Source: Rhizodiscina lignyota (taxonomy: Eukaryota; Ascomycota; Dothideomycetes; Aulographales; Rhizodiscinaceae). From it: DNA of 64,000 bases. Below the pieces are notes generated by a model that searched no databases, was not told the origin of the DNA, and worked only from the letters and a program-made list of their open reading frames with translations. A program made the position numbers and the translations under genes. Positions 2,501-56,781 of this stretch are shown in pieces. The DNA lies in contig ML978121.1 in NCBI GenBank assembly GCA_010015805.1, positions 3,286,001 through 3,350,000 on the forward strand, in the 5' to 3' direction. The first letter of the stretch is position 1, and each line of letters starts with the position of its first letter.

Positions 2501-3241
2501 AGTTTGAGGGAAACTAATTGCGCCGATCGCAAAATATTCACCTCAACTTCGGCAGCAAATTTATATCATTCCTCTTCCCTTTGTTACGGTGCCAGTGATC
2601 TCTTGCTGTGATAGAACTCTCATAGGGACTAAGAAGCTCAAGGGCCACGGGTGCAAATGACAGCAGCAAGTGGAGCAGCGCGACAGAGGCGGCGAGGGAA
2701 AGTTTGACCAGTTCTCCCGCACATTTGGCGGTTTTTGAACTCTGATCCATGAGACTTCAAGGCGTCCTTCAGCCTTCAGTGGCCGGCTGGCACCGCTCTT
2801 GATTTTGGTGTGGCTACAAGCAGACTTTATTCGTCATCAAAACAGGCAACAGTCGCTTCTTAGATGGTGTTACAAGCATCTCGAACCCGCTCCAATCGAA
2901 AATGAGAGCTCTACAAGGAGATGGACAATGGTGCGGGGTTTCCGGTCAACACAGCCTGCTTCTCAATGCCGTCAATACGAGTGGCCGGCTTTGGCAACGT
3001 ACATTATCCCAGCCGCTAGGCGAGCGGTCAAATACTGCCATTGGATATATACCAGTGCCTTTGGAAGGGATTGAATGGCTTAACTGCTTCTTCTGCTCTG
3101 CACCAAAGTGGCGTAAGAGAGCCTTATGAATTGATTACGATCCGAATGGTTAGTCGTCTCTTGCATGACCACTAGTACTATCTTTGGTTACCTTTAGATC
3201 AACATTCGCTGTGTTCCTAATCAAGGCGCGTGGAGTACACG
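2501..3241. other. Intergenic, no gene supported
   Basis: Short frames only. A plus-strand frame at 2902-3129 is open but unrecognised. It could be further decayed sequence of the DUF2235 remnant. The last 200 bp must hold the promoter of the kinase at 3242. Confidence 0.4.
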
Positions 3242-8402: not shown

Positions 8403-8627
8403 TGTAGGCTGACGAGTGTAAGACAGGGGAGATAGTACTGTTCCGGAGAAGGGAAACGTTTTGGAAGTAGAAGCATCAAAGAAGTAAATGTGACTTGAAA
8501 GAAGGTCAAAGTGTTGGAGTTGAATTGTGATCAAGAGCTTCTTGCTTCGAAGAAGCTGAAAATGATCTGAGAGTGCGGTCAAACAAACAAGAGGCATTGG
8601 GTATCTTCTCTTCGTGCGTCTAAAATG

Positions 8628-10258: not shown

Positions 10259-11161
10259 TTTGCCGGCGTGAGAAGGTTGATGAGATGTATTATGGGGTAT
10301 ATCACGGGCAATGAATCTATAACGCGCACATGGAAATTTTTTGACTGCGCGTCACTGCCACTTGCGAAATTTCGCGGGGCAGTTCCGAACTTCTGCCGAC
10401 TAAGCCACGAGGCTTGATAAGATAAGATTGTGGGCCGCCAGCCAAGGTTGGAGGAATGTACAAAGTGCGAAGTAGTGGATCTACGATCTGCAACCAATTG
10501 ATCTTTCACTAGGGAGTTATACACCCGTAGTTCACTATATGTCAAGTGGATCTATCTGGATCGAATCTCTAAGATAATACACTGAGGGCCGAGAGCTCCT
10601 GTGCCAAAGCATCTCACTCGCCCAGATCACGCTCGACTCGCGATGGGGCGTGCCACCCCAGTGATTCGCGCTAACGCGCCTTGCATTAGCGCCGATTTAG
10701 CGCGGTGCGACCTGAGTTTGCGGCGAGTGGCAGCACGGCGAGTTTACTGTGGGCGTGCACTGTATTTTCCGCTTCATTTCCATCAACACGCACGTAAAGT
10801 CGCAACTGGTCACCCACCGTCAACCTCGCTCGCTTCGCCGCTACATAAACAACGCCGCCCTCTGCTATGGGTCTCTCCCTCCTCCACCTAACACCGCTCT
10901 AGCCCGCGACTTAGCTTGCTCCCGTCAACGCGACCTCGGATCGATTGGCTGGCGCTTGCTGACCATCGACTGAGGCTTGCGCTCTCCTATATCGAGCACA
11001 CTTCGCGACTTCACGCACCTCTTGGAGCTTTCACTTGAAGTCGACCTTGCATTTGATCTTGCGCTTCAATTCCACCTCTTGCACGCATAGGCGCAATCGG
11101 CGGCCCGCAGCCTCTCCATCTCAACTTCTATCAAGCACAACATTCCCACAATATCGCAACC
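10259..11161. promoter_or_regulatory. Divergent promoter region RRB1 / SPG1
   Basis: About 900 bp between two divergent starts, without a supported gene. Near RRB1 are GATGAG (10279-10284), a PAC-like core, and GAAATTTTTT (10333-10342), RRPE-like; both element types mark yeast ribosome-biogenesis promoters. The SPG1-proximal 300 bp is pyrimidine-rich, as in fungal 5' leaders. Element calls rest on short matches and are tentative. Confidence 0.4.
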
Positions 11162-12309
11162 ATGGAGATGGACCTCGACTCCGCCGCCTCCTCCTCTCAC
11201 GGAGAGCAGGACATCACCATCGTGAACGAGCAGTACCGCCGCAGCATTGGCCCGAACGATGACAGCATGGACGCTACCATCACTCCTGGCACTGCATACA
11301 CCAGCAACGGCCATCACGAACACCGCCCTCAGACTTCCTACTCCGACACTACCGGCGCGTTCTCTCGCTCCTATGCCTCTCACAGCGACGTCGAGAATGG
11401 CTATGCCGGCGGCAAGTCCACTTCGCGCCCCAGCTCGGGGCTCGGCATGCACGGCGACGGCCAGAACTACACTGCTCAACAGCAGATGTTGTTGCAGCAG
11501 GCTGAGGCCCAGCGCACAAAGGAGTCTGTCGTCCTCAAGGTCGGCATGGTTGGCGACGCTCAGATTGGCAAGACGAGCTTGATGGTCAAGTACGTGGAGG
11601 GAAGTTGGGACGAGGACTACATCCAGACACTTGGTAAGTTGGTACTCTGGCTCCTGCAGTGAACGTGTACTACTCTTAGCCTATTTGTTGTTGAAGGTGA
11701 CGAGTACGTTGTCGTTGATGATCCTAAAGGTGTGAACTTCATGGAGAAGACCATCACTATCCGCAATACCGAGGTCACCTTCTCCATCTGGGATCTCGGC
11801 GGCCAGCGCGAGTTCGTCAACATGCTGCCGCTCGTGTGCAACGACGCCGTCGCCATCCTCTTCATGTTCGACCTCACGCGCAAGAGCACGCTCAACAGCG
11901 TCAAGGAGTGGTACCGTCAGGGCCGTGGCTTCAACAAGACTGCCATCCCCTTCCTCGTTGGCACCAAATACGACCACTTCATCAACTTCCCGCGCGAGGA
12001 GCAGGAGGAGATCTCTCACCAGGTACGTGACTCCACTGCCACAGTGACCTCCGTGTGTGCATGCTAACGTCGCTGTCCAGGCGAAGCGTTTCGCTAAGGC
12101 TATGAAGGCCTCTCTCATCTTCAGCAGCACGTCGCACAGCATCAACGTGCAGAAGGTCAGTCCGCTTTCGCCCTCAAACCAATTGAACCATCTTTCTGAC
12201 AACGTCGTAGATCTTCAAGATCGTGCTGTCCAAGGCCTTCGACCTCCGCTGCACCATCCCGGAGATCGAGCACGTCGGCGAGCCTCTCTTACTCTATCAG
12301 TCTGTCTAA
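11162..12309 (+). CDS. SPG1: Septation GTPase Spg1/Tem1
   Basis: Model join(11162..11633,11730..12022,12081..12155,12211..12309), 312 aa. Spg1 is the Ras-like switch that starts the septation initiation network at the spindle pole body and signals septum formation. Residues 1-120 are a low-complexity Ser/Gly/Gln extension. The GTPase domain follows: P-loop [19 protein letters not shown] switch [10 protein letters not shown] switch II (Gly-Gly-Gln typical of Spg1/Tem1), GTKYDHF as the NKxD equivalent and [11 protein letters not shown] as the SAK region. The protein ends [15 protein letters not shown], as in Spg1, without a prenylation motif. Introns are 96, 58 and 55 bp; the second has GCTAAC. 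The N-terminal extension is long compared with yeast Spg1 but occurs in filamentous fungi. Confidence 0.94.
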
Positions 12310-13098
12310 CTTGCGCACCCCCCCTCTACTTGTACCATCTTACTGCTCCTGCTGATAGTGCGGCGGAACCAATCTCCAAGAACGCGGAGGAGGGCTGGGA
12401 AGCGTTGAGAAACGATAGGCAGTGGCGTAACTGGTCACGCAAGTACAAGTACGTCCGCTGTGGTAGTACCTAGTCCCAGAGAGGCTAGCTTCTTTCCGAA
12501 TTGCGGAAACACGGTGATGATTTCAATGACTTTCACGGGACATGCACGGTTTGAATACCTCGGAATCATAGCAAGCGCGTCTGGCGCTTGCAATGGCCCA
12601 ATTTAGGGCTTAGATAAACGGAACTTCTTCACAGATTCAAATTGTTACTGCTTCAACGTGATTGATGGTGGTGGAGACGTTGACTATCCTGTTCGAAGGG
12701 CCCCAATCGAACCTTCGATATTGCTGCGAAGCCATTCGGGGATGCGTGTCTGGTTGACATGGAGTTGTCAATACTCAGTCATCAAAATTAAACCCGAAGC
12801 CCACAATGCGGATCTTCTATGAAGTCGTAAGCCAGAGTCGGACAAACCTACAGCGATAATGGAATCTTCCGAGCAGAGAGCAAAGGCCTAGAAACAGTCG
12901 TAAGATACATGGCGAGAGAGTCCAGGCATTTCAACAGTTTGTCGTACAGCACCATACACTTCAATGACATCCAGACTATCGGTGTATGAGTTTGCAGCTT
13001 GCGCATGGGATAACTATAAAGTTGGTATCGTGTGTCTCCAAACGTCTGATATCACAATATGCATGAACGAAAGGGAATATATGCTGTACAGCGCACAA
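12310..13098. other. Intergenic between convergent genes
   Basis: The SPG1 3' flank meets the 3' flank of the WD40 gene. Frames here are short; the open frame overlapping the SPG1 end is a shadow. No element recognised. Confidence 0.5.
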
Positions 13099-25046: not shown

Positions 25047-26429
25047 CTATTTTAGCTCCTTCCATGCTTCCACGCTCCACCAGTCATCAAAAATATCAGC
25101 TCCTTTGTTGACCCATTTGTATACAAATCCGGCGTCCTGTACCTCACTCTCAAGCTTGCGAGCAGCCATCCGCTTTTCTTCTTCTTCGGCGGAAGGACAA
25201 AACCTGAGTGGACATATGGTTAATTCGAAGCGGCGCATGTTTGGGAGTGACTGGCTATCGACGACCTTTGCAAATGCCAGAAGTGGCTCTTCATGGTCTC
25301 GTCCACAATAGTCCACTTTGAAAGTTTCAAGACTTGCGGGAAGCAACTGGATGATACTCTGACTGGTCACCTTGACAGTTGCACTGCCAGTCGCAGCAGA
25401 GCTGCGGCCAAAGATTGTCGGACCCCGGACAACTAAGTGCTTGAGCTTATCGAGGACGCGAAGCCCACCAGCAGTGACGAAATGAACCTGATACAGTGTA
25501 TTTACATGTAGAGACTCGAGGGTAGTTGCATGAGCAGCGGCCAATTTAGTAAGAGTGAAAGGGGCCAAAGAGCTATCGCCACTCTTGTTGTGCGGTGGAA
25601 TTTCGATATATTCGAGACGGGTCAGAGCCTTGCATGACGACACGAGAAGGTCGATAAAGCCGGGCTGCTTGGTCCCAATCCAGCTGATTGTCTGCACCGC
25701 CGACGATCGCGGAAGGCATGTCCACAGAGACAGATCTAAATCAGGTTTGTCGCCGAGGTCTACGCACATGAAAGTAGAAAGGTTTGGCATGGAGAAGAGA
25801 ATTGTCAGTCCCTGCAGGTCGATGGGAGATTTGTCGCTAGCTATCAGCCTTATACTTTTGAGCTTCGACATGCTATGTCCGACTTTCGCTACCAGCTCGA
25901 TTAGAGATAGCGGGTAGTGAATTTCATCGTTGTGAAGTTTGTCGGGGGCGAGCTCATTGAGTTTTAGCTCCTCGAGATTTGGAGTGCGCGCCAGTAGGGT
26001 GTGGATCTCGGCAACTTCGCAAGGATATAGGTCGGTATGAGGCATTTCGCTTAAATCGAGCGGAATGCGACTTGTGACAGTGGTCGGGAGCGCCAGTTGC
26101 TCTTTGCTAAGAGGAGCCTGCTCGAGCATTTTCTTGTAGAGCGTCATATCTTCTTCAGATAATGTTGTAGGAAATTGAGGCGGGAGCCACTGGCGGAGGT
26201 TAAGAGAGCGGACCAGAAGCCCAAGCTCAGGATTCTCGAGAAGAGTCCGCGCGAAGGGCCAAAATGGTTTGGGTTGATACATATCAAAGTTTTGATACCT
26301 CTTGTAGAGTTCTGGAGTGACCCATTGGTTAACTCCACGTGATACGAATGACAGCGCCTTAAGATCTTTCTCATCCTGGAGCCGCTCGAAGATGAGGGGG
26401 AAAATGTCGCTCGGAACGTTTGGCAACAT
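25047..26429 (-). CDS. F-box protein
   Basis: Single exon, 460 aa from ATG 26429. The frame is open back to another ATG at 26597 (516 aa), but the F-box begins directly at the inner start, so I prefer it. The F-box (about residues 2-42, LPNVPSDIFPLIFERL...ALSFVSRGVNQWVTPELYKRY) would bind Skp1 in an SCF ubiquitin ligase. The rest has leucine-rich character (LEELKLNELAP, LKSIRLIAS, NLSTFMCVDL, LKHLVVRG, LETFKVDYCG), as in substrate-binding LRR-like arms of fungal F-box proteins. The C-terminus is Lys/Glu/Trp-rich (KWVNKGADIFDDWW). The substrate is unknown. A second F-box gene lies 2.6 kb away. Confidence 0.82.
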   Translation of the reverse strand: MLPNVPSDIFPLIFERLQDEKDLKALSFVSRGVNQWVTPELYKRYQNFDMYQPKPFWPFARTLLENPELGLLVRSLNLRQWLPPQFPTTLSEEDMTLYKKMLEQAPLSKEQLALPTTVTSRIPLDLSEMPHTDLYPCEVAEIHTLLARTPNLEELKLNELAPDKLHNDEIHYPLSLIELVAKVGHSMSKLKSIRLIASDKSPIDLQGLTILFSMPNLSTFMCVDLGDKPDLDLSLWTCLPRSSAVQTISWIGTKQPGFIDLLVSSCKALTRLEYIEIPPHNKSGDSSLAPFTLTKLAAAHATTLESLHVNTLYQVHFVTAGGLRVLDKLKHLVVRGPTIFGRSSAATGSATVKVTSQSIIQLLPASLETFKVDYCGRDHEEPLLAFAKVVDSQSLPNMRRFELTICPLRFCPSAEEEEKRMAARKLESEVQDAGFVYKWVNKGADIFDDWWSVEAWKELK

Positions 26430-26632
26430 CCTGGGATCGATAGTTGTATTAAAGCAGTGGACTGCTGTGTGATTCCGAAGGCATGTAGCGATGTGGGACA
26501 GTTGAAAGGTCGCAGCCGGAGTAGAAGTATTTATAGGCAGCCTCTCACAATTTTGGTAGGGGTATTCGCAAGCAAAGCTTCGACTTTTGTGAATCATGGA
26601 AGTGAATGACGAGCGCTAACCGAAGCATTGCT

Positions 26633-28705: not shown

Positions 28706-30229
28706 CTATCTGCAATGGTTCCAGGTTGATGCGTAGCACACAGAGGCTCCCGTGCGCGCCTTCTGGGAGAAACAAGTACATCGTCTCTCCATCCTTTCTA
28801 AGCAAGAATACCTCACTTTTATTACCCTTCCTAGTCGTCCCGTTGAGAGCTTGAAGCGTCGTAGCCGCGGTAGAGCGACTGGCACACTTCTGAGGAAGTC
28901 CGCGAGCCAGCCAAGGTGTTTGTTCGCTATGTAGCTCTCAGTGTCCGCCGCTCGCAGATTGCTATCGTTGGGGAAATTTCCGTTCCATTGTAGGATCAGA
29001 GTGGACAGCTAGACTTTCATCAGCTAACGAACAGGATACGATTTTCTAACTAGCGTGCTACTTACGTCAAGGGCCTCCGGTGTAGCTAGGAGGTGGTTCT
29101 GCAGTCCCAATAGTGCTGTTGAAGAGGTGTCTGCAGGCCAAAAACACACCGCATCGGTGGCAAGGTGTTTGAGCTGCTTGAAGCTCGAGAGATCTAGAAC
29201 TGTCCTGTCGTGGGTTACACGATTAGGGTCGGCCTTCCAAAAGGCGGATATCGAAACCTCTAGCGTCAAATACACCAGCGAATCTTTTACTTCCTTAAAG
29301 GCCTCAACTAGCTCCTGGGGCGAGAGAGGCTCGGCTGTTCGCCGTCCTCCAGCAAGGTGATGAAGATGTCGCGAATTCATCTTTTGTAGAGGTGCTACGA
29401 CACGGAGGTCTTTGAGAGCCTTTGGGATCGATAGCAACTGCCGGAGGATACCGATTTCGATATCGTAGATTCCAGGTCCATTTCTTTTGCCAATGGCCAA
29501 CCCAAGGACCTTTACATTTGACGATTTGGGCCGCACGTCTTTCCAATCCAGTTTTTGGAGCGTAAGCACTCCAGACGCCTCGATCGTAGTAACTGATGGG
29601 ATTGACATCAAGTCCACGATTTCTGTTACTGTGGCTGAACCCTCGAGAATAACTGTGTGGAGCACTCCGATATCCAAGCACGTCGCAAAATCCATTCGCC
29701 GATCCAACCCGATGAAGCCGGAAGCCGACTCTTTCGCTATATGCGTTGGGTCATCGCGTTTCTCTTCATCGCTACGATAAAATCGATCCAGTGTAAGACG
29801 CAGAACTTTCAGGCCAGGCAATTTCGCAAGCATTGTCTCGAGTTCAAGATGCCAGGCAGGGTCCATGAGTTCACAAATGCAAAAGTTGAACTCGCGAACC
29901 CTTCTCGCGAGAAGGGGTCGCTCTAGAAGAGCTGTCTTGAAAGGTTCAAAGGCATTCACGGTCGGCTCGCCCCTCATCTCCCTCCTCACTTCAAAGTGGA
30001 CATCACGGACAAGCCACTCTTGAGCGAGATGACAGAGCCTGCTGTGGACGAGGCAGAGATTGTGGAGTGTTTTGTAATGACGTTTATCGTAAAGGATCCT
30101 AAAGATTTCGTGGAGACAATCCTCATTGAGGTCGAGAAGAGTCGTGGCTGTGCCTGACGATGATTTGATGGCTGTTGCCGACGTTGGTCTGACGGCCGTC
30201 ATCGGCAATGTCTTGATCCAAATTACCAT
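28706..30229 (-). CDS. F-box protein, C-terminus uncertain
   Basis: Model complement(join(28706..29008,29066..30229)), 488 aa. Exon 1 starts at ATG 30229 (an in-frame ATG nine codons later is also possible) and carries an F-box-like segment at about residues 32-75 (LLDLNEDCLHEIFRIL...LCLVHSRLCHLAQEWLVRDV), followed by leucine-rich repeats-like sequence. A 57-bp intron (GTAAGT...TCTAG) joins in phase to LSTLILQWNGNFPND. After about 28800 the exon-2 frame looks poor, while another frame reads well down to 28590, so the last 40 residues are doubtful. Predicted role: SCF substrate adaptor. It resembles the F-box gene at 25047 in layout, not closely in sequence. Confidence 0.7.
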
Positions 30230-30525
30230 CGAAATTAGAGGGTTCTCAAAGAGTAGGCATAAGAGCTATCAAGGAAGAAGATTCGTTATTGAAGCGTTTC
30301 AAGAAAGAGTGGGTTTAAGAGAGGGCTTATATATTAACCCCTAGGTGTTTGAGAGACTAGTGCGGCTACGAAGAGCCGTCATAACTACAGCGACAGACAT
30401 TGACGCCCAACAAACTCAGCAAATGACGCCAGCTTGCAAATCTGCACAGAATGTTCATAAACGAGCGAGAGACGGCCTTCAAGGAATCGAGAAACATTGC
30501 GAGATCGTGTCACAAAGCCGGCGCT

Positions 30526-31248
30526 TCAGATATAGTCATTCTGCGCATACCAGTCTCCCCGGCCCTCAGGAATCAAGTCCAGTATCATCCACACTGCGGT
30601 GAATAAATCACCGCCACGCTCCGGGAACCGCTCCTGGTCTTCGTTCTCCTTGTCAAAGTGGGCATTCACAGTGTACACGTGTCTGACAATGCCCTCCTTC
30701 TCCTTTTTAAAGACACTCATTGACGGAACATCCTTGAAGTCGGGCATCCACGGCGGGTGCTCCAAGTGCATGTCATTATTGAATGTGCTCTCTAGGCTGG
30801 ACAGGATGCGCAGATTGTGCCACCCGCGTTTACGCGCCCACGCACGCAGCTTGCGAATATCGCCCTTGCCAATGATCGCGAGGTTGGCGCGCTGCTCAAT
30901 GTGCTTGGCAGCGCCATTGATGCTGTCGATGGCGCAGCTGCACATGGAACAGGCTTCTTCGGCGTCTTCGCCAAACATCATGTGGTAGATGATGAGGCTG
31001 CGGCCGTCCGCGGCGAGATCGGCTAGCGTCGTCTTGGTGAATGGGCCATCTTCGTTGAGGTCGCGTGGTCCTTCGATGAAGGTATATTCCTTCATGGGAG
31101 CACCTGGTGGAAGAGCTCGACGCATCTCAGCGACGCGCTCGACTTGATTGCGGAGGTCCCACTCGGCTTTGAGGAGATCGGCACGAGCCTGCTTGTACTC
31201 CTCGCTGGCACCAGCGGGATAGCGTTCGATGTGAATTGGACCAGGCAT
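30526..31248 (-). CDS. DUF899 thioredoxin-like protein
   Basis: Single exon, 240 aa, ATG 31248 (MPGPIHIERYPAGASEEYKQAR). It matches the DUF899 family (PF05988), mostly bacterial proteins with a thioredoxin-like fold and a presumed dithiol-disulfide role. Seen here: WDLRNQVERVAEMRRALPPG, EYTFIEGPRDL, LIIYHMMFGEDAEEACSMCS with a C-x2-C pair, and a C-terminal WMILDLIPEGRGD. Full length for the family. The absence of introns and the largely bacterial distribution fit an old transfer from bacteria, though single-exon genes are not rare here. Substrate unknown; probably soluble. Confidence 0.85.
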   Translation of the reverse strand: MPGPIHIERYPAGASEEYKQARADLLKAEWDLRNQVERVAEMRRALPPGAPMKEYTFIEGPRDLNEDGPFTKTTLADLAADGRSLIIYHMMFGEDAEEACSMCSCAIDSINGAAKHIEQRANLAIIGKGDIRKLRAWARKRGWHNLRILSSLESTFNNDMHLEHPPWMPDFKDVPSMSVFKKEKEGIVRHVYTVNAHFDKENEDQERFPERGGDLFTAVWMILDLIPEGRGDWYAQNDYI

Positions 31249-32500
31249 CTCGGCTGAAGCAAAGTATTATTCTTCTGATGATACTGATAAACTGATTCTG
31301 AATAGAGAATTGGGAGCGAGGACTGGAGCGTTTGATTGTGCTATGCGCTGATGAGCAGCTGGAGGTCAACCCTGTACCATATTTATAGAGCAATTGAGAA
31401 GCAAGAAGGTATGAGAGATCAGTAATCTGAAATCAATTGCGCCTCGTATCTAAGGCTGCAATGCGTATCACGGAACCTTTTCAGTGGTATGGATGCACTT
31501 GTTAGAGTGCAGGAGCCCGAGATATGTGGGAGAACGTCGTAGGTGCAGTTCGGTTTCAAGTGACGGTGAGAGCGCCACACAAACTCTGAAGATCAAGCTG
31601 GTGCCTATTCTGAGCTTGGAAACTAGGCATTGAGTCAATTGATTCAGGACGCCAATTTGCAGAGCAATTGAAGTGTCGAGAAGCCTTGCATGATTTTAAC
31701 TTTAACCCCGCGTACGGCGCGCGCCACTGACGCGAAATCACGGGGTTCTGCCTAATCTCTTCGCATTTCCACGGATTCATAAATCCTTTCACATTCGGGA
31801 CGCTGAACTCGCTGATATCGACATGAGCTCGATGTCCCTGTATCACATTTCGCTATGCATAATGGATGAGCAGCTTAGACGGCTTCGCTAGTGATGTGAT
31901 CTGTCCTTGCTTGAGCCCCATGCGGCTGCAGGATTCGAATAATATGCCACAGGCGTGTGCGGCCGCTGATACTGTCTTTCATTTCGATGGCTGTGGAAGA
32001 GATAGTCTAACCTACTATGAAGTTTAAAGCTAATTGACCTCGGTATGTGTCTTACCTGGCTGTCAATAACTCTAGGTATCACTCGTTCGGTATTTTGTCA
32101 CCCCCTGAGCATGGTTCCGCCAGCCTGATTCTTCTGATTTCCACGACGAAATTTCCCCTCCAGACAGCTTCTATGGCAGAAAGTTGTGTCTTTCAAAAGA
32201 CACAGCTCATAGCTCACCTTTTGCCTCTTAAGGATGCAATGTCGATCGCTGATACTTAGACCGACCGTGTGCGGCCGCGCGTACATATCAAGCGTACATC
32301 AATACGTTACATGAATGTGCCGATTTCCTAGTCAAGAGAGAATATTCCCATCGAGTCTCTTGCACGTCGCAATTTGTACTGGTTCTCCCCAGGTTTATTT
32401 TCTTTTAGTATCTCTGAATTTTTTTTACCTACATCGGGTAAACTCTCGACTTCGTGCTCTCAAGCAAACTCTAAGAATCGGTCGAACTACCGTGCCTGGC
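31249..32500. other. Intergenic, promoter of CorA-like gene
   Basis: No gene supported. Frame 32315-32500 upstream of the CorA-like ATG opens with a non-ATG codon and is probably 5' leader. Two NotI-like GCGGCCGC sites occur (about 31958 and 32273); no meaning assigned. Confidence 0.45.
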
Positions 32501-33882
32501 ATGGAGTCGTGGAGTCAATACTATGAGAAAATTGGAGCATCACAACTCCCTGTCGATATCAAATATGAATATGACGAAGAGGCACCGGAGATTCTTGTCC
32601 GGGAGGTCCTCTGCGACCAGCAGTCGAACTCATACGAGGCGAAATCACGCATAATTGCTGGAACGGACATTGGTGTATGGCTTCAGAATGAAAACCAAGA
32701 CAAGAATGATAATCGGATTATACCAGCTTTACAGCTCGTCTGGGTCAATTGGTGTAATAATTCGCTCATGCATATTCGGAAAGATTGGGAGGAACAGATA
32801 CTCAACAGCTTTAATCTGACAGCCGCAAAGCATTATGCTGGAGTGACGCGATACTCTTTCGCAAGGTTTGAGGAACGAACAGGGTCTTCAGACAGCACGA
32901 AGAGCTACTTGGTTAGATCACCTCTCCTTTGCCTGATTTGGTCGTACGACAAGAGTCTGGGAAGGAACCGCGGCATATTCGTGGCAGACCCTTGGCTTCG
33001 CCACCAAATGTCCCACCTGCTAGAGTGTGTCAACGGTTCCACTCTGCACCACCCAATGTTTCTCGCCGAAGTTGCCTCCATGGTTCTCAATTCACATCAT
33101 GACTTTTGGCTCTCAGCTGCAGAGCGAGATATCCGACCAGCGGAGGCACGAACCGGATTTGGCGGGGCAATGAGAAAACATCCTCCTGCCCAGAAGGCGC
33201 TTAGCGAGTTATCAGCGCAAATGAGTGGAGTAAAGGTGAACCTAGCTGCGAGCGATGTTGGATTGGCATTCAATAAGAGATTAAATCGCTTCATCTGGGA
33301 AAACTTACAAGACTACAGCAATGCTCCAGATGGATCGCCGCAACTTGCGGCATTTGACGCGGGCAAGAAAGCGCTGATGGCTAGCTGTGAAGCGACGAAG
33401 GATCGACTGGACTGCGTTCATGATAGGCTGGACGAGTACGTCAAGAGAGCAGATAATCAGCTCACAGCAGTACGGCCACCGCTCCGTAGAGAAGTGAAAA
33501 CCATTGACATATACTCCAGCTCTTTCACCTGATAACCCAGGAAGACACAAAAGCTAGTCTCGCAATCGCTCAAGAGTCCAAGGCTCTGGCTGAGGCAGCA
33601 AAGCGCGACTCAGACTCCATGAAATCTTTATCATTAGTCTCGATGATCTTCCTCCCTAGCACTGCAGTTGCATCGATCTTCGCCATGCCTTTCTTTGACT
33701 GGGATCGCAATGGTGTTAATGACAATTTTTGGATATACTGGGTCACGGTGATTCCTCTCACGATTTTAACGCTGCTCATCTGGCAGCTTTGGATCCGGAG
33801 GCAGAACCTGATAAGGAAAGCCGAATATTTGAAGGGGTCAGAAGGTGGTGATCTAGAGAAGGACGACAAGATTTCCGCTTAG
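32501..33882 (+). CDS. CorA-like membrane protein
   Basis: Model join(32501..33469,33541..33882), 436 aa; ATG 32501 (MESWSQYYEKIG) is the first ATG after a leader that is open only through non-ATG codons. The 71-bp intron restores the helix QLTA-EDTKASLAIAQESKALAEAAKRDS. The helical stalk is followed by two transmembrane helices, LVSMIFLPSTAVASIFAMPF (about 355-375) and WIYWVTVIPLTILTLLIWQLW (about 388-410), the CorA (PF01544) C-terminal topology. The GMN selectivity motif of true Mg2+ channels is replaced by AMPFF after TM1, as in many fungal CorA-like proteins, so Mg2+ transport cannot be assumed. The N-terminal 250 residues are diverged. Confidence 0.8.
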
Positions 33883-35104
33883 GCTTCCATTTATACCCGG
33901 TAATAGCTCTTGATGTATTTTTGAGATGCTACGTTTGCACTGCCCTTGCATTCTAATTTTCGGCGAAAGTTATTTAGAATAGTGTCCATCATGAGAAGCA
34001 GACGAGAAGTGCAGTCTCGACATGTTTGACTTGAGGTAGCCGTGGAAATGGCAACCCTTGGAGAAAGCAGATGCAGGTGTTGTACTCCCACACACCTGAT
34101 CCCAGTTGCTCGCACAACTCAACAAGACGTTTGTGCGGCTGATGCCGAATCAGCAAATTAGTATGCTTCGTAATTTTGATGGTAGATATTAGAATTGTTT
34201 TTTGGTGCCCACGGTCGAGTTTCTGAATTGACACCGATTGCTGTCGATCTGTCGCCTGGAACACTTAAAAATCTAGAAAACGGACCGAGAGCCTCGCTGT
34301 TCCGATGAGAATCGCCTCCCAAAATGCCGAAGAATCAAATAGATCCAAGTTTGTCCTTTATGTTCCGTGAGAGACAACGTCGCCGCTGTACATCAACAGT
34401 TTTGCCACACATTGTGGTTAGCGTGTTCGCTGTTGCCTGAGCATCACGAAGCTGTATTTCGGAGAGCACTGAATCACGCCAGAAAATGAACGGGCCTACG
34501 TCGACAAGGCTCTTCGAGGCTGTGTCTCACGCAATTGGCTACTCGCAATTACATGTGTCGGTCTGGCAAGACGTCGTTTGTCCGAGATCCCATGGCATCT
34601 AAACACGGAAGATGACGAGCGGTCCAAATAGAGGTTCAACTGAGAGCAAAGATAAGACCACTGCAGATGCAGAAGATACAAAGCCATTTCTGTCCTCGAG
34701 GGCGAATATCTAGGCATGGGATTTGTAAATAGAAAGCTCGCAAAGTTTCGTATCCCTGAGACATACAGGTAGAGTACCCCTGCGCTAGTCCGAATGTGGA
34801 ACTCGCCTCAAAACTGGCCTTGACGTCTTGGATGTTTTTTTCGATCCTACATACACTTCTGTACAAGAAAATGACTCGGTATAATCACATGCACTGGCAG
34901 TGCTTTGAAAGCGTAGGATCCCACGGAGGGTTGATCCATTCCCATTCGTCAGTCGGGAATGCGACGCTATCGTTTCGAAGTTATGCATGGTGCATCTTCT
35001 AGCCTGGCGACGCATCGTGAGGCGCAGCACATAACCATCACCCGTGAAGATGAGTACATATTCACATTTTCCTCGCGTATTCTCTTCAACTCTCGCTAGG
35101 CATC
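33883..35104. other. Intergenic, no gene supported
   Basis: About 1.2 kb with only short overlapping frames and no convincing splice structure. It holds the promoter of the Helo-like/Rho-like fusion. Confidence 0.5.
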
Positions 35105-37301
35105 ATGGGAGCGGTAGGTATTGCTCTGCCAGTAGCGTCTCTTGTAGTGCAATGCACACAGACAGCAAACGCGTGCAACGATGTCAAAGAGAGATACCAA
35201 TCCGCACCAACAACCGTTGTAAGCATTATCGCCGAATGCAATTCCATCCAGCCTTCACTTCCGGAGATCGAAAGCTTCGCGGAGCGAGCGCTTCCCTACC
35301 TGGATTCAGAACGCCAACAGCGATTTCAGTCTTCCGTGTGTAGCCTTTGCGAAGGCTGTATAACCGCTCTCACCTCGATCGACGAATGCTTGAAAGGTTC
35401 CGAAGAGATTTCTAGCAATGGCGGTATCATTATTCCACCGGTGCGTCGATTGAGTAGGAGGGGGAAAGGACGAACGGCATGGAACGAGAGAGAGCTTCTG
35501 GTGTTGCTAGACCGTCTTCGGGGCTATCAGACTAATCTCATATTGTCGCTCTCCCTGTTGAGGCTGTGAGATACCAAGAACTCTTGGGCTGGCTATGCTC
35601 ACGCTGATGGATCAACAGAGAATCAGATGAGAATCTTCGGCAGCTGATCGAAGTGCAAGGTAGCATGCTGGTCGCGATGCACTCGCGATTCATGCGATCC
35701 AACCTACACTCCTCGAGTCAGATGGATACCAATACAGAGCGTAAAGACGCCCGGAGATCGATATACGGAAACCGAAGCACATTGTCTCTTTTCGATGATG
35801 AAGCGATCACTGCTCATCTCGTGCGCACAAGAGCTGAAGACTCCTCGAGCGCTCCCGACTTGAGCGCCAGACTCTCTACCCTCGCCAATTCCAATGCGAA
35901 CAATTCCCAGACGAGCCTACATACAGGCCTGTATGTTGCTAACCCTTCTTGATTAAGCATCGACTCCACCCGCAGTAGCATCGTCTCCGAAACATCGTTC
36001 CTATTTGACGCCGAGGCTTTGAACTTGCGTGCATATCGAGCAGTGTTTCGGAAGCGAGTCAAGAAGCTGGTTGGTGCACCGGTAGGAAATATTCTGATGG
36101 CCGGTGTAGAGTCATTAGAATGGTGCTCGGATTGGACGGTCTCTGCATATTATGCAGCGCTTGACTATCTGGGCGACGTTGCTGCAGAGACGATTCTCGA
36201 CGCGGAAGACCAGTCCATTTATTACTCGATATTGGAAGATGACATTCCTGATCGCGTAAAATCCTCTGATCCAGCGCGGCCGTCGACCGCAATGTACGGA
36301 TCTCTTAATAGGCGACTTGACAATCATGGAGCGCCGTACCCTAAGGTACAAAATCGGGTTGTGCCGGTGGAAATAGCAATGATGATATCAATGGGCAGAA
36401 TGCCAACATTCAAAGGTGTTCCTAAAATCAAGTACGTAACCGTGAAATCACATCCGGTTAATTGTCCTGAAAAACTCATGACCGCAGATGTACCGTCATA
36501 GGCGAGGGCAGCTCTCCCAAAACAAGATTACTCTGGTCGTTCATACATGGCAAACCTCCGGAGGCTTATACCCCGAGGACATTCAAGGACTCTGCACTAA
36601 CAATTAGGTAAGGCGGTCCAATTTGCTTCACAACCGGAGCACACACCTACTAATCTCTTCACCAGGTTGAAGTCCACCAGAGAAGGGGACTGGTGGGAGG
36701 ATCGGCGGGTTCGGATGAGCCTGTTCGACACTTCTGGCCTGGAGGAATATGATAAGCTTCGCCGAATGCACTACGAAAACACTGATGTTTTCTTGATTGT
36801 GACTCCGGCCAATGCAACTCCGGCCGCCACGGCAACGACAGGTGCTAGAGGTCGGCATGCATCAATGGACAATGCGACGAAATGGGAGTATGATATTCGA
36901 AGCCGCTATTACAACACCCCGTACTTGATTGTTCGGGCCAAAGATCCAGCGAACGATCCAACGCAGCCATCATCGAGCGATGAAGGGAATAACAGAAAGA
37001 GCTCGGAATCCGAATCCCCTTGGAAAAATCCCGGACCTCTTTCTCTTGGAGCGGTCAAGATAGTACAATGTGATCTTGGAAGCGGCGAGGATATCATGAC
37101 AGTTTTTCGTGAGGTATGTATTTGAGGATAGCCGTCGCAGTGATTTTGCTACTCACTTCCACATCGCAGGCCATTGTAGCGGCCTTGAACTTCAAAGCTG
37201 ATAAGGCATCTGTGAGAAGCATGCTGAGGAACGTAAGGCAAAGCAGAATGCTACGTCAGCTGATTCAAGGCCGAAGAATCATCGAGACAGATGAGGGTTG
37301 A
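35105..37301 (+). CDS. Helo-like N-terminal domain fused to degenerate Rho-type GTPase domain
   Basis: Model join(35105..35565,35619..35930,35976..36431,36488..36607,36666..37113,37170..37301), 642 aa; every junction keeps frame and total length divides by three. Residues 1-105 (MGAVGIALPVASLVVQCTQT, then amphipathic helices) resemble the fungal STAND N-terminal Helo-like domain (PF17111). A linker of about 300 residues contains SETSFLFDAEALN...AYRAVF. From about 408 a Rho-like domain begins: KCTVIGEGSSPKT where GDGAVGKT is expected (P replaces the G before K), AYTPRTF switch I, FDTSGLEEYDKLRRMHY switch II, DVFLIVTPA, RAKDP (about 541-545) where TKxDL is expected, and CDLGSGEDI where the SAL motif is expected. 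No C-terminal CAAX box. Likely a pseudo-GTPase or atypical switch in programmed-death or recognition signalling (inference). Confidence 0.78.
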
Positions 37302-37896
37302 CATTGCAGACCGAAAGGCAAACTTCGTACGGAGTACTCCTGGATATTTCGGTGTCGTCGAAATTCAAAAGGTTGGGAACATCGCTGCGCGTTGAACTAA
37401 GAGATGGAGTACACTTGAACAGCAACAGTAATGAGAAGAGATTTGATGGAAAGATCTTTACAATAGTTCGGTGGATTTGACATCAATTTCTTTCTACTTC
37501 TTTCTGCCTATTATAGCTTAAGCATAGCAGATTGACCAACGAATTGAAACAAGAAGAGCAACTAAGGCTGAAATTTCATAAGCATATTAAATCAGTTAAG
37601 GTGCTTAGACTTCTTTATGAATCTTCTTGGTGATGTTCAAGGTGGTACCTTGAGAGGTTTTTGAGGCGTCGATTTGAAGGAAGTGTTGGGACGGCGCCGA
37701 AGATTATCCGGCGCCAAGTCTTGAAATAAAACACCACACTTAGATTAGTACGTAATAAATTTGTTACCATAAGGCTGAAGGCGGTGAGTGAAAAGTTCTG
37801 CCGGCCGTCTCCAAAATTTCCATAGTCGGCACCAAAGTTGTTCGGTAGTCATCACCGCTGTTCTTCAAGTCGCCCATACGGCGCAGGCAAATCGCA
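37302..37896. other. Intergenic, AT-rich, short GC hairpin
   Basis: No gene. GGCGCC...CGGCGCC around 37693-37716 can pair as a short hairpin in an otherwise AT-rich stretch. It ends at the RLP24 start. Confidence 0.4.
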
Positions 37897-38607
37897 ATGA
37901 GGTCTGTTGTACACGACTGCGTTACTTTCACTTGAAGCTGATATCCTACAGGATCGAGACTTGTACCTTCTGTTCTCGCCCAGTCTACCCCTCCAAAGGT
38001 ACGCGATATCCCTCGAAGCATGCTTCAGATCAGCAATTTAACCAGTGATGTCTTTTCAGGTATCACATTCGTCCGCAACGACGCGAAACTCTTCCGCTTC
38101 TGCCGCTCGAAATGCCACAAGAACTTCAAGATGCACCGCAACCCGCGCAAGCTCGGCTGGACGAAGGCGTTCAGGCGCGCGCATGGCAAGGAAATGGTCG
38201 TCGACTCCACACTGCAGTTCGCGGCGCGGCGCAACGTGCCCGTGCGATACGATCGTGACAGGGTGGCCACGACGCTCAAGGCGATGCAGAGAGTTGCGGA
38301 GATTAGATCGAAGAGGGAGAGGCAGTTCTACAAGGAGCGCATGAAGGGTAACAAAGAGAAACAGCGGGCAGCGAATCGCAAGTTGGTGGAGGAGAATCAG
38401 CACCTGTTGCCTCCGGAGGAGAGAGATGTTGTACCGGAGCATATCTTGGCACAGCAGGAGCTCGAGGCGGCGAAGATGGATGCAGAGGTCGATGTCCAGG
38501 AGGAGGAGGAGCAGCTTGTGGAGAAGAGGCCGAAGAGCATACTGAAGCAAAAGAAGCAACGGCTAATTGTTGGCCATGGGCCGGAGAATATGGACGTGGA
38601 CGAGTGA
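37897..38607 (+). CDS. RLP24: 60S ribosome biogenesis factor Rlp24
   Basis: Model join(37897..37901,37952..37998,38060..38607), 199 aa. Rlp24 (eL24-like) is a placeholder on nuclear pre-60S particles, later swapped for Rpl24 after Drg1 extracts it in the cytoplasm. Exon 1 is only ATGAG. The frame [25 protein letters not shown] emerges across introns of 50 bp (donor GTCTGT, non-consensus) and 61 bp. Zinc ligands are C6, C9, C32 and C36. [27 protein letters not shown] is the conserved core. The C-terminal half is a charged helix with EEEEQ and a basic KKQRL end, which in yeast recruits Drg1. Length matches yeast Rlp24 (199 aa). Confidence 0.95.
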
Positions 38608-51368: not shown

Positions 51369-53842
51369 TCATATCAGTGTAATTTCTTCTGCTGGCTGCG
51401 TATGTCCCAACCAGGATTGAGGAAGACAGTCCCTTTCAGCGACGCAAAGCCCCACACCGATCCTCTCGTATGTGCCAGGGACCGTCGCTGAATTCTCAAC
51501 TACGAGAAGATAATATCCTACTCCAGTTTGCCCCGTCTCTCGGCCTGAAGCATCTTCTCTGAATACTGGTATCGAATGCAAGACGAGACAAAGACACTCG
51601 CCGTTGTCTTCCGGCTCCCAGTCTTTGTCGTCGAAGTGAATGTGGCCGGGCAAGTCTACGTGAGGCTTCCCAGACGGTCGAACTGTCATCTCACAAATGT
51701 TGAATGTTGGCAGGTTATCCAGAGGCTCAACGAACTCAGTTGGCGTCCACCAGTGCCTTGTTTTGAGTTCTCGCATACTATTCCAGTATTCGTCGTTGTC
51801 TCTACGCTTGTTGATGCGAGCGGGCCACATGTGTGCAGCAACTCTGATCATTGTCCGTGTGATCGACAGGTCCTGGGTTCTGTCTGCCCACTCAAGGACA
51901 TGTGGTCGAGCGTTGTCGTACTCACTGATGAAGGTTGCAAATTCGACAGGTCCTTTCCAGGCTGCCCAGCTCCATGATGGTGCTACGTGATCAGTTAGCG
52001 ATAATTCAATAGCCGACATCAGCTCACTGTGGCAATACCTCCTGATGCAGGTTGCCTTCTAAGGTCGTCCGATGACGCGTACCAGAACAGATATCGGGCG
52101 ATGTCCTCTATCCATAGGCCGGCACAGTAGGTTAGTCTGGTTCGCGCTTCAAACAACTTGGCGAGACCAAGGATTGCAATCAACTTGTCACTCTCCTCCG
52201 TTAGATCTGCAACATTGTATCGAGATACTACTCGGTTCCAGAAACGGTATTGCGCCTCAACGACAGGTGTACCTATGCCAATGCCCGTCGCATCCTTCAA
52301 CTTATCCCAGGTCAAGTAGGCAATGGCTCGGAGAGACCGAAGTTGACGTGAGGACGCCGTCAGGGAGTTCGCCAATGTTGTCTCTCGATTGAGGCGGTCA
52401 AAGATTGCTCGCTTGGAATGTACTCCCGTGTCTCCGAGGATCTCATGGGAGGATGTCTCAGGGTAGAGACCGTGCTGGCATTCGAAATACAGCTTCTGAT
52501 GAGCGAAATGTATGATGCGACGAGACAAGAGACTCTCCTGTACCACCCATCCACGATGGTACCACTTACTAATCTCTAATTCCTTGTTGAACCCGCTCAA
52601 GCTCATCGGTGGCTCAGGGCAAGCTATTCCAGAGACTCCGATATCCCCGATTCTTCGGCCCTTCTCATTGCACGGAATCCTGAGAAAGTTTTCGCCACAT
52701 GCACCCGCGGGAGCGGCGAAAATATCAGGATCTGGGCGATGGAATAGACCCTCGTCACTGCTTTGGGCAGAAGTTGCAGCGATTGTGCATACTGCATTCT
52801 GAAATATTCGACCCATGTTCTGCGACTCTCTTCTCCAGTCGTCCGGATCGTCTTGAACAATGCAGAGCGCATCTACCCACAAATAGCGCATGCCCAAGTT
52901 CTGGGTTACAAGTATGGCATCCTGGACTGTCTGAGGCAGGCTATTTCCAGGTATTTCTTCGCGGAATTGCCCTAGTGTGTCACGAGTTGTCCTCAGTGCT
53001 TTTTTCGTAGGATCGCTCAGTGCTGATCCCCAACAATAGCTCAAGGTTACGTACGGGCGTCTTTCTCCGCTTGATATGAAGAGAAGCGGCCTCGCGCCAG
53101 GCTCTGTGCCCACGTCAATCACGCGGGTCGGAAGCAAAGCAGGCCGTGAACTGTCGTCGATTTTAGCACCCGAAAGCGCGAGCCGACAGCTCAGGTGGTT
53201 CTCCATGCAGTTCTTTAGCCATGCTCTGCCGCGCTTAAACGCGAGTTGTGAATTTGGTGGTACTATTGGCCGCCCAGGAAGGCGAGACTTGGCTGCGGGA
53301 GGAGAGTCTGCACGTTTGTCATCAGTTTTAGCGGGGAATAGAACGGAGATGCTGTGGGTACCTTTAGTCGCAAAAACTCTAAGAACTCCTGTATATACAG
53401 CAGAACCCGAAGCCTCCGAAGCGTGATAGTTGCCTGCAGCAGTCCGATCAAGGGAAACGATAATGCACGTCAACCGAGCGGGCGGATGAGCTTCGCCAAG
53501 TTTGGTTCTCCTCTCACGTTCGGCAGCAACGCTCGAGTATCTCGGTTGTGCAGCACGGTCTAGGACGCCGTCGAGGACGACGCCCTGGAGGAACACTCTC
53601 CTCCCCTTGACCCACTCTGCCAGCGCCTTATGATTCCCATCGCGGTCTACAGCAACGGCATCCAAGATGGCTTTGCAGAAGCGGCAATCGCGGCATGTCC
53701 TCAAAACTTCGTGAAGAGTCGGACCGTAACAATAGCCTTTCTCTAGCTTATCTAAATCAATGTCCATGCAATAGTTGCAAAGGCCTGATTCAGCTGTTCC
53801 ATGCTCTTTTGCTTGTAAATCCTCTGTAGAAATTGGCGACAT
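51369..53842 (-). CDS. HET-domain protein
   Basis: Model complement(join(51369..51982,52039..53842)), 805 aa. HET domains (PF06985) trigger programmed cell death in fungal allorecognition. Residues 22-56 hold a Cys-rich head (CNYC...CRDCRFC) that may bind zinc. The HET core at about 264-410 has YVTLSYCWGS, SLPQTVQDAILVTQNLGMRYLWVDALCIVQDD, and RIFQNAVCTIAATSA. A second signature RGWVVQESLLSRRIIHF follows. The 56-bp intron (GTATTG...CGTAG, branch GCTAAC) joins to APSWSWAAWKGPVEF, the usual post-HET motif. The C-terminus is family-typical and lacks NACHT, WD or ankyrin partners, so the partner may be encoded elsewhere. It looks intact. Confidence 0.92.
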
Positions 53843-54978
53843 GATTAAGAAAAGCCACCGTCAGCTCCGCTAATCATTCGTCTGACACATTACCATTTGG
53901 CTGGGTTATATCATCACGCCTCTTGTGGCGATGCTCAGGGTCCGACGGTCAAGAAATGGCGCTTGGATCGGTGATCCAATCCAGCTTAAGCATTTCGGTC
54001 GAAGACTTCAAGAACGGTGTTGTAATATGATGGTGATGAAAAGCTTCATCTGCCCGGCGAAGTTATAGCAATGTATTGGCCTCGAAAGCGAAGCGACATC
54101 TCTCGTGTTTCCAGCTCGTACAGAAATAGCAGGCGGAATTTCGGCTATTCTTTGGCAGTTCCCGTATCCTAATTCTCCCACTTCCGAAGTTTTCCCGTAT
54201 GTACATAATACGTATTTCCTTCTCACGCGTTATGAGTGAATTCCGCGGATATTTACATCAATGCTCAAGCAACATGTGCGAATAAGTGTTCGATTCTCTA
54301 GGTTGAGCGAATTGAAGCCCGGACAACACACGGGCATCAGCGGTCATGAACCGCTCCTCCCTGACAAGCTGTACACCATGAGGACGAGCAGCTCCTGCAC
54401 TTCGAGGTGAGCGAGACTATCTCTGAAAGCTCGATTGTGCGTCCTTTAGAGTGTATTAAAGAACAGCGAACCATAAACAAACTCTTACACGCTTTACTAA
54501 TTACAGAGGCTACACACTGCTGCTGTTCAGTGTCTTGAAAGCGGCAGAAAACTTTTTGTCACCATGAAGTGCTTCTTACCCTCACGTATGAGACGACTAT
54601 CTCCCGTCCTTCTACCTGAGAAGCAGGTAAACTTTGATCTCTCATGTTTTGAGTTGTTCTAAATGATCATCGAGTCGTAGCAGACGGAGAAGAATTATAG
54701 CAGTATATAGAGTGCTTGTTACATTGTTTATTTGGAGCCGGGGTTCCGAGTGTAGATTCCTTTCTTGCTGGAGCCTTCGAATTTCTGAATTGCACCTTCC
54801 TTCAAGTTGCGGCTGCTCTCGATCCAGTTTATGACGCCCTCATTTATGTTGTAACAACTTCTCTTCCTTTCCTTCATTCCCGCATAATCCCACATACTTT
54901 TATAGCCTGAAATCCTACACAGTATCTCGCTGCCTTGCTTCTCAATAACCTAATTACTTCAACCTTTATAATAACCTA
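53843..54978. other. Intergenic, divergent promoters HET / GH17
   Basis: No gene supported. A TATAATAA sits just before the GH17 start (54968-54975) and a TATATAG near 54703-54709. The 1.1-kb spacing is long for this window and suits regulated expression. Confidence 0.45.
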
Positions 54979-56781
54979 ATGCCTGCAAAGTTTCTTTGGG
55001 CCCTCGCGGCCATCCCCTCAGTCCTTTCCGCTACAATTCAAGGCTTTAACTATGGCTCACAAGGCATGAACCAAGAAACATTCGTACAGCGCTTCCAGCT
55101 TGCTCAAAATCTGGATAACACGGGGAGTCGTTTCAGCGCTGCTAGGCTGTACACCATGATTGAAGACGGAACAGTGAACACACCCATCTCTGCCTTTGCA
55201 GCTGCCATTGCTACCAAGACAAGGCTACTGCTGGGAATATGGTGCTCTGCAGGCCAAGCCGCCGTCACAAACGAGATCGATGCATTTGTTAGTGCACTCC
55301 AACAGTACGGTAGCGACCTCACCGACCTCCTTGATGGCATCTCTGTGGGCAGCGAAGACCTCTACCGCATCTCTCCTACCGGATTAGAGAATCATTCTGA
55401 CCCCGGTGCGGACCCTGACACCTTGGTCGAATACATCAATCAGCTCAAGGCAGCTATTGCAGGCACTAGTGCTGCGGGTGTGCCGATCGGACACGTTGAC
55501 ACATGGACTGCTTGGGTAAACAATAGTAACCAAGCGGTTGTCGTCGCATGCGACTGGATTGGCGTTGACGGGTATCCCTACTGGCAGACGGTGAACGACA
55601 ATGACATATCAAACGCTAAGCAGTTGTTCTTTGACTCGTACGATGCCACTGTCGATGCCGCAAGCGGCAAACCAGTCTGGGTCACGGAGACGGGCTGGGC
55701 TGTTGATGGGCCTACCGAGAACGCGGCCGTCGCTAATATCGCAAACGCGAAGCGATACTGGGACGAAGTTGGGTGCGCGCTGTTTGGAAAAACAAATGTG
55801 TGGTGGTACACCTTGGAAGACGCAGGAGCTGTACCCTCCTTCGGCATCGTTGGCTCCAGTCTCACAAATCCTCCGCTTTTCGACCTGACCTGTCCCAATG
55901 GCACATCAGGCAAATCTGTCCCCTCGTCGAGCGCGCCACCAGTGTCATCTGTGTCGTCTGCAACGACTCCCCCCTTCACAATTACGAACGCCTCTGCGAC
56001 TCCTGCAACGGCACCACTACCTATTCCGTCGAACGGCCTCAACAATATCACAACGGGCAACTCTTCCGGACTGGTGACCAAAGTTCCCGCTACGACGCTC
56101 GTCTACACCTACAGCACAACGACATGTCCTGTGAGCTACTCGACCTACACGACCAATGGAAAGGTCACCTCAACTCCGATTACTCTGGCAACCTACACCA
56201 TTGTCGGGACGCAGTCATACGTCGCTAGCAAAACGACCACACTGAAGACCTCCACGAAACCCTCGTCCGCCTCAATCAGCGACGCTTGTCCGACAACTCT
56301 GACCAAAGACTATGAATTCCCGCACCTCATCGTCCCGGTCGACAGCTCAAATCCGGATACAGCACTCGGCAACTCCTACAACGGCAAGGTATCAGGCACC
56401 ATCTCTTCTATATTCAACTTCGACATCCCGCCTGGAGATTCCGACAAGACCTGCACGCTGTTGTTCCTTCTTCCATCTCAAGATGACTTGACGACGTCAT
56501 CATTTACGCTCTCGGGTAGCGGAGGCATTAGCATCTCACAGGTTGCGCCAGCCACGGAGGGCAGCACTTACAACTCCGTCACCAAGAACGGTGGCGTCGG
56601 AAGCGTGGATACAGTGACTCCGGGTTCAAGCTATGTAGTTTCGAGCGGAAGCTGTTCGGCATTGGCTGGACAGAAGGTGGCATACCTCCTTAGTGCAACA
56701 GGAAGTCTGGCATGCTCGTGGTTTGAGGATTCGGGAAGCGACAGCTCTAGTCCGATCGGGCTGTTTATGAATGTATGCTAG
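54979..56781 (+). CDS. Secreted GH17 beta-1,3-glucanase with But2 C-terminal domain
   Basis: Single exon, 600 aa. A signal peptide (residues 1-18, MPAKFLWALAAIPSVLSA) precedes a GH17 catalytic domain (about 20-310). Catalytic residues by family position are E126 (GISVGSEDLYR, acid/base) and E237 (VWVTETGW, nucleophile), so it is probably an active endo-1,3-beta-glucanase or transglycosylase acting on cell-wall glucan. A Thr/Ser-rich linker (about 310-430), likely O-glycosylated, with TYTT and NxS/T sequons, leads to a C-terminal But2-like domain (PF09792, about 445-600): EFPHLIVPVDSSNPDTALGNSYNG and SIFNFDIP. No GPI signal is seen, so it is secreted or wall-bound. The single-ORF fusion is explicit in the frame. 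Confidence 0.88.
   Translation: MPAKFLWALAAIPSVLSATIQGFNYGSQGMNQETFVQRFQLAQNLDNTGSRFSAARLYTMIEDGTVNTPISAFAAAIATKTRLLLGIWCSAGQAAVTNEIDAFVSALQQYGSDLTDLLDGISVGSEDLYRISPTGLENHSDPGADPDTLVEYINQLKAAIAGTSAAGVPIGHVDTWTAWVNNSNQAVVVACDWIGVDGYPYWQTVNDNDISNAKQLFFDSYDATVDAASGKPVWVTETGWAVDGPTENAAVANIANAKRYWDEVGCALFGKTNVWWYTLEDAGAVPSFGIVGSSLTNPPLFDLTCPNGTSGKSVPSSSAPPVSSVSSATTPPFTITNASATPATAPLPIPSNGLNNITTGNSSGLVTKVPATTLVYTYSTTTCPVSYSTYTTNGKVTSTPITLATYTIVGTQSYVASKTTTLKTSTKPSSASISDACPTTLTKDYEFPHLIVPVDSSNPDTALGNSYNGKVSGTISSIFNFDIPPGDSDKTCTLLFLLPSQDDLTTSSFTLSGSGGISISQVAPATEGSTYNSVTKNGGVGSVDTVTPGSSYVVSSGSCSALAGQKVAYLLSATGSLACSWFEDSGSDSSSPIGLFMNVC

Follow-up and report, generated by a model that had tools for sequence, protein, structure and literature searches.

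A six-exon fungal gene that probably encodes a large protein with a Cdc42/Rac-derived pseudoGTPase domain

A 64-kb window, the whole stretch of DNA analyzed here, contains a six-exon gene whose product is probably a large intracellular signaling protein with a C-terminal pseudoGTPase domain derived from Cdc42/Rac. We favor this reading because the residues corresponding to G15 (phosphate binding), T35 (Mg and gamma-phosphate sensing), Q61 (hydrolysis), and D118 and A159 (guanine recognition) are all replaced, and the domain is likely a non-cycling one. The protein looks like an inactive-enzyme scaffold joined to a front part predicted to be helical, and our verdict, as far as sequence can assign a class, is that it belongs to a known kind, the large atypical Rho proteins or pseudoGTPases. 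It combines, in one natural protein, a change at G15, the position of a nucleotide-free laboratory mutant, with a change at the position of Q61L, the laboratory constitutively active Rho mutant. The protein allows a clear test of whether a nucleotide-dead Rho fold can scaffold signaling in fungal polarity or defense. The pseudoGTPases described so far are relatively few (PMC5593906, in part). The features of the gene and the other genes that bear on its interpretation are listed in Table 1.

Table 1. Exons and introns of the six-exon gene, its neighbors and a second small GTPase gene (positions in the 64-kb window)
Feature	Positions	Strand	Remarks
Exon 1	35105..35565	+	Residues 1-153 and part of 154; predicted helical bundle (AlphaFold2 single-sequence model)
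Intron 1	35566..35618	+	GTGAGA...CAG, 53 nt
Exon 2	35619..35930	+	Residues 154-258; helical region ends, Ser-rich linker begins
Intron 2	35931..35975	+	GTATGT...CAG, 45 nt
Exon 3	35976..36431	+	Residues 258-410; middle region without family or PDB match
Intron 3	36432..36487	+	GTACGT...CAG, 56 nt
Exon 4	36488..36607	+	Residues 410-450; first strand of the Rho domain, P-loop GEGSSPKT, switch I
Intron 4	36608..36665	+	GTAAGG...CAG, branch-like motif CTACTAAT, 58 nt
Exon 5	36666..37113	+	Residues 450-599; switch II DTSGLEEYDKLR, AKDP at G4 (Cdc42 TQID), CDL at G5 (SAL)
Intron 5	37114..37169	+	GTATGT...CAG, 56 nt
Exon 6	37170..37301	+	Residues 600-642 and the stop codon; final helix of the Rho domain; tail basic and amphipathic, lacking a CAAX box
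Neighboring ORF, unassigned	32315-33529	+	Beside the six-exon gene
L24e-family ribosomal protein ORF	37942-38604	+	Beside the six-exon gene; Pfam
Small GTPase, presumably Spg1/Tem1-like	about 11057-12400	+	Pfam Ras/Roc match to first exon

The Rho-like domain and its nucleotide site

The original prediction had placed a Rho-family domain at the C terminus, and residues about 408 to 610 indeed form a Rho domain of the Cdc42/Rac type. A Pfam scan of the whole protein matched Ras (PF00071) at residues 410-495 above the cut-off (E = 8e-9; 35.7 versus 21.6 bits), and a phmmer search of the PDB returned 231 sequences at E <= 0.1, led by Cdc42 (E = 8.1e-20). Among the best 60 of these 231 matches, 56 are named Cdc42/G25K or Rac1, and the remaining 4 carry generic GTP-binding names. 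Residues 408-503 match Cdc42 on their own (E = 1.3e-13), and the second half of the domain on its own scores 21.3 bits against Ras, just under the cut-off of 21.6. The Roc profile also exceeds its cut-off (30.9 versus 27 bits in the Pfam scan), and NCBIfam small_GTP falls below its own (27 versus 42.5 bits). We rejected a Roc-type protein because Roc scores under Ras and the listed PDB matches are Cdc42/Rac; a conflict-system GTPase was rejected on the available text of PMC7159879, which mentions AP-GTPases and no Rho fusion.

The entire G domain aligns with Cdc42/Rac from strand 1 to the last helix, with about 37% identity outside the pocket. It differs from these proteins in its longer hairpin between strands 2 and 3 (a nine-residue insertion), in a low-complexity insertion after strand 4, in a Rho-insert region of similar length but of low-complexity, Ser/Asn-rich composition, and in the roughly 400 residues that stand in front of it. 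The C-terminal tail, about 30 residues long, is both basic and amphipathic. Its last four residues are TDEG, and the CAAX cysteine box is missing, as predicted.

The nucleotide site is altered throughout. The P-loop reads GEGSSPKT (residues 415-422), G4 reads AKDP (541-544), and CDL occupies the SAL site (585-587), all three as originally described. The accompanying claim of a degraded nucleotide site holds for the residue losses that it named, but it overlooked two switch-region changes, T35R (switch I) and Q61L (switch II), which, as judged from the alignment, are more telling for switching and hydrolysis than the changes in the P-loop, G4 and G5. The alignment to Cdc42 has no gaps between strand 1 and the end of switch I, nor within switch II, and it maps G15P to residue 420, T35R to residue 440 and Q61L to residue 475. 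Compared with wild-type Cdc42, the site keeps G10, G12, K16, T17, Y32, P34, D57, T58 and G60. It carries the changes D11E, A13S, V14S, G15P, C18R, F28P, V33T, T35R, A59S, Q61L, T115A, Q116K, D118P, L119A, S158D, A159L and L160G, the alignment near 118 and 159 being less certain than over the first 83 positions because the fungal protein is one residue short beside G4. The top PDB match, 1nf3, has Leu at position 61 in its aligned row, like the fungal protein.

We quantified these changes over 26 positions that we take to be the nucleotide and Mg contacts of Cdc42. Nine of the 26 match wild-type Cdc42, compared with 58 of the 158 other aligned positions (37%), so the pocket is kept no better than the rest of the domain. 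At nine positions that we assume to be invariant across the Ras superfamily, four residues are kept (G10, K16, D57 and G60) and five differ from Cdc42/Rac (G15P, T35R, Q61L, D118P and A159L); the G1 to G5 motifs are accordingly not intact (G15P, T35R, Q61L, D118P, S158D/A159L). The second small GTPase of the window, presumably Spg1/Tem1-like and matching Rab22A and Sec4 best in the PDB, served as a control. It is farther from Cdc42 overall than the Rho-like domain (12/25 contacts and 36/157 other positions identical), yet its G motifs are largely intact, with 8/9 invariant positions kept and a Ser at A159 as the exception. As aligned, the contrast between the two proteins lies in the nine invariant positions, and their contact identities (12/25 versus 9/26) are not far apart.

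The surfaces that meet partners are also changed. Four switch I effector positions differ in the alignment to Cdc42 (T35R, V36T, D38K and Y40S), and 6 of the 13 switch II positions from 62 to 74 are identical (E62, Y64, D65, L67, R68 and Y72). The binding of Cdc42 partners is not assured, because of the changed switch I effector positions and this 6/13 identity. In the preferred reading, the Rho-like domain would hold one fixed shape, nucleotide-free or at least non-cycling, and would act as a binding module that needs no nucleotide. The switch II face of the domain, which is partly kept, might dock Rho regulators, among them GEFs, GDIs or the effectors that serve the endogenous Cdc42/Rac. The helical N terminus and the middle region would localize or oligomerize the protein, and the basic amphipathic tail could stand in for prenylation in membrane contact. 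It is doubtful, though conceivable by analogy, that G15P makes the protein a natural GEF trap or decoy, an idea that arises because G15 is the site at which Rac1 G15A loses nucleotide and gains tight GEF binding. That mutant binds neither GDP nor GTP and has a high affinity for GEFs (PMC3253119, in part).

Known pseudoGTPases provide the closest frame for such a protein. They are defined as GTPase folds without one or more G motifs, and those that bind no nucleotide and have degraded G motifs include the pG1 and pG2 domains of p190RhoGAP, CENP-M and the fungal dynein LIC (PMC5593906, in part). Degenerate septins form a further group (PMC10731463, in part). Unlike the class i pseudoGTPases, as far as PMC5593906 describes them, the fungal domain is recognizably Cdc42/Rac in its sequence. 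RhoBTB proteins are likewise large and atypical Rho-related proteins (RhoBTB3 has 611 residues) with altered G motifs and extra domains, but their BTB and BACK extension follows the GTPase domain, whereas the extension of the fungal protein precedes it (PMC4931677, in part). The Big Ras GTPase TBRG-1 is another large fungal Ras-superfamily protein with a poor G4; by description only, it has G1, G2, G3 and G5 (PMC8146680, in part), whereas in the six-exon protein G1, G2 and G5 are altered, as is the catalytic Gln of G3. By the mark of the Big Ras GTPases in the text available, conserved G1, G2, G3 and G5, the six-exon protein does not look like a member.

The best-surviving alternative to a non-cycling module is a non-canonical nucleotide-binding GTPase or ATPase, similar to RGK proteins or RhoBTB3, that still cycles or stays loaded. 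Residual nucleotide binding is conceivable because K16, T17, D57 and G60 are kept, and both precedents lend it weight: RhoBTB3, a large Rho-related protein whose G4 and G5 are altered, both binds and hydrolyzes ATP (PMC4931677, in part), and RGK proteins stay active despite divergent motifs (PMC5593906, in part). However, the fungal domain has five key changes together, including a proline in the P-loop and an arginine at T35, and we consider such an enzyme unlikely.

The N-terminal half and a possible immune receptor

The N terminus had been predicted to be a STAND-type Helo-like domain. Pfam models, PF17111 (now named PigL_N) included, gave no match to residues 1-190, 1-97 or 1-58 at E up to 10, a limit that is nominal since the HMMER filters remove most matches above about 0.1. 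A control search with PF17111 matched 0/14 control genomes and 0/3 virus records and gives no calibration. A phmmer search of the PDB with the N terminus found no relative at E up to 10. An AlphaFold2 single-sequence model of exon 1 alone has helices at residues 7-30, 36-46, 49-61, 68-105 and 128-152 (mean pLDDT 65.3, pTM 0.57; the five models range from 36.7 to 65.3). Foldseek compared this model with the PDB and returned 668 matches at E <= 10, none of them at E <= 0.001; the best was IncA (E = 0.095), and no HeLo or MLKL entry appears among the best 50 of the 668. The proposed Helo-like identity thus gained neither an HMM match nor a significant fold match, although the single-sequence model, at pLDDT 65, lacks the confidence needed to exclude it.

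The hydrophobic start and the helical pattern resemble the front ends of many fungal proteins and are a lead only. HeLo, Goodbye-like and MLKL-like domains are described as having a four-helix core (PMC9815663, in part), with which the helical model can be reconciled, and a remote relation is conceivable. Residues 181-270 are rich in serine (18/90), and the middle region that follows (residues about 270-405) is matched by neither a Pfam model nor a PDB sequence and yields an unreliable structure model (pLDDT 39).

The original prediction further proposed a receptor for death or recognition whose GTPase fold occupies the switch position usual for NACHT/NB-ARC. In such a receptor, a signal received by the Rho-like domain would release the helical N terminus to attack the membrane. 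We regard this receptor as improbable and the idea itself as speculation. The N terminus does open with a hydrophobic stretch, its predicted helical bundle fits the HeLo/MLKL four-helix core (PMC9815663, in part), and some 15 kb separate the six-exon gene from a HET gene. The protein shares with HeLo-like (PF17111/PigL_N) effectors and NLRs its predicted helical N terminus, its fungal origin and the HET gene in the window (PMC9815663 and PMC4986451, both in part), but it differs from them in having no profile match, no NACHT/NB-ARC and no Pfam-reported repeats. The Pfam and NCBIfam scans of the protein give only Ras, Roc and small_GTP, with neither NACHT nor NB-ARC, and the Pfam scan gives no C-terminal repeat sensor (ANK, TPR, WD40 or HEAT); the C-terminal end consists of the Rho-like domain and its short tail, with no repeats there. 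Against the receptor also stand the N terminus, with no Pfam match, PDB sequence relative or Foldseek match at E <= 0.001 and with HeLo/MLKL missing from the best 50 Foldseek matches, and the logic of the switch, since one without a nucleotide pocket cannot be nucleotide-switched.

The surroundings of the gene also bear on the receptor. We scanned with Pfam 28 of the 34 stop-to-stop ORFs of at least 200 residues in the window, keeping the best 25 families for 3 of the 28. Of the six remaining ORFs, five are on the strand opposite a scanned ORF and overlap it, and the sixth is at 7986-8627 (-). NACHT and NB-ARC are absent from the families listed for these 28/34 ORFs, and no NLR partner of the kind that PMC9815663 (in part) places beside HeLo-like effectors was seen among them. 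The claim that Helo-like domains usually sit on NACHT or NB-ARC switches agrees with surveys in which the HeLo-like domains of fungal NLRs are almost always on NACHT types (PMC4986451 and PMC12258605, both in part), but the contrast drawn with the six-exon protein counts only if its N terminus is HeLo-like. Switchless HeLo-like proteins also occur beside NLR genes (PMC9815663, in part). We consider it very improbable that the protein acts in cell death or allorecognition with a nucleotide-free Rho pseudoGTPase in the position of the NACHT/NB-ARC switch. Such a domain would monitor Rho regulators, for instance through capture of active GEFs, or of effectors tampering with Cdc42/Rac signaling, and would set a HeLo/MLKL-like bundle free. 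If the front part were truly a HeLo bundle, the protein would represent a new type of switch in fungal immunity.

The gene model, its relatives and its surroundings

We built the gene model by reading both strands at 34000-38600 and testing splice sites. The six exons join, as predicted, into one open frame with five GT...CAG introns, giving a CDS of 1929 nt that encodes 642 residues and ends in a stop codon. Of the six frames through each exon, only the coding one lacks internal stops, and the start codon has an A at -3. A codon-usage model was trained on 14 other ORFs of the window, with stops excluded and the ORFs themselves scored leave-one-out. The coding frame ranks first of six in 4/6 exons and second in exons 1 and 6, with stops left out of the score. 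The joined CDS scores 0.005 bits per codon, which exceeds 4 of the 14 other ORFs (range -0.036 to 0.158), and it is equaled or exceeded by 12 of 171 control stretches, each 100 codons long, from the opposite strand (mean -0.098, 95th percentile 0.014). Codon usage thus appears weakly gene-like and adds modest support to the gene model. On these data the predicted gene is very probably real, and its unbroken frame across all six exons suggests that the protein is under selection.

It is highly improbable that two adjacent genes were misjoined, a helical protein from exons 1 and 2 and a Rho-like protein that begins at Met299 in exon 3. With intron 2 unspliced, the first frame stops at 35952, and an ATG at 36097 in exon 3 could begin a second product. 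However, intron 2 has a GTATGT donor, a CAG acceptor and a preserved frame, exon 3 is open in the joined frame before Met299, and two genes would leave only about 145 nt between them. Least probable of all is a decaying pseudogene from a fungal Rac/Cdc42 fusion gene, for which the lost pocket residues, low-complexity linkers, weakly gene-like codon usage and the failure to find relatives in the virus, prokaryote and phage collections speak, and against which stand 642 codons over six exons without a stop or frameshift and a domain core 37% identical to Cdc42 (58/158 non-pocket positions).

Our relative searches covered viruses, prokaryotes and phages and have no bearing on the spread of the gene among fungi. 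The middle-plus-Rho part, the N terminus and the Rho domain had no relative in a viral contig collection, the Rho domain had none in a collection of prokaryote genome contigs, and the whole protein had none in phage records. A PADLOC scan of the whole protein returned nothing, and a tblastn search of the 64-kb window for a paralog gave only the gene's own exons below E = 1. Among the open-access papers searched, we found no filamentous-fungus protein in which a Cdc42/Rac-derived pseudoGTPase follows a long N-terminal extension and no account of a fusion between a HeLo-like domain and Rho, Ras or a GTPase. Unnamed relatives in fungal databases are expected.

We infer that the window derives from a filamentous ascomycete, as indicated by the HET gene, a Pfam match to the kinetochore protein Sos7, the Spg1/Tem1-like GTPase and the short GT-AG introns. 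The HET (heterokaryon incompatibility) domain gene is located at 52022-53860 (-) (Pfam E = 4.9e-31). The ORFs at 25050-26615 (-) and 29027-30265 (-) look by eye like F-box/LRR-type proteins; Pfam matches the former weakly to LRR_15 (E = 0.017) and does not match the latter. The ORFs at 216-1082 (-) and 3221-4813 (+) share a similar N-terminal region (36/132 identical; E = 0.002 in a two-sequence comparison, a weak likeness), and in the latter, beyond a stop or intron located at roughly 3824-3826, Pfam identifies a protein kinase domain (E = 7e-24). The ORF at 54949-56778 (+) combines a part similar to glycoside hydrolase family 17 (E = 5.3e-4, below the cut-off) with a But2 C-terminal domain (E = 5.4e-43). 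A DUF899 protein is encoded at 30529-31266 (-) (E = 8e-42); Pfam describes this family as bacterial, and the gene possibly arrived by horizontal transfer.
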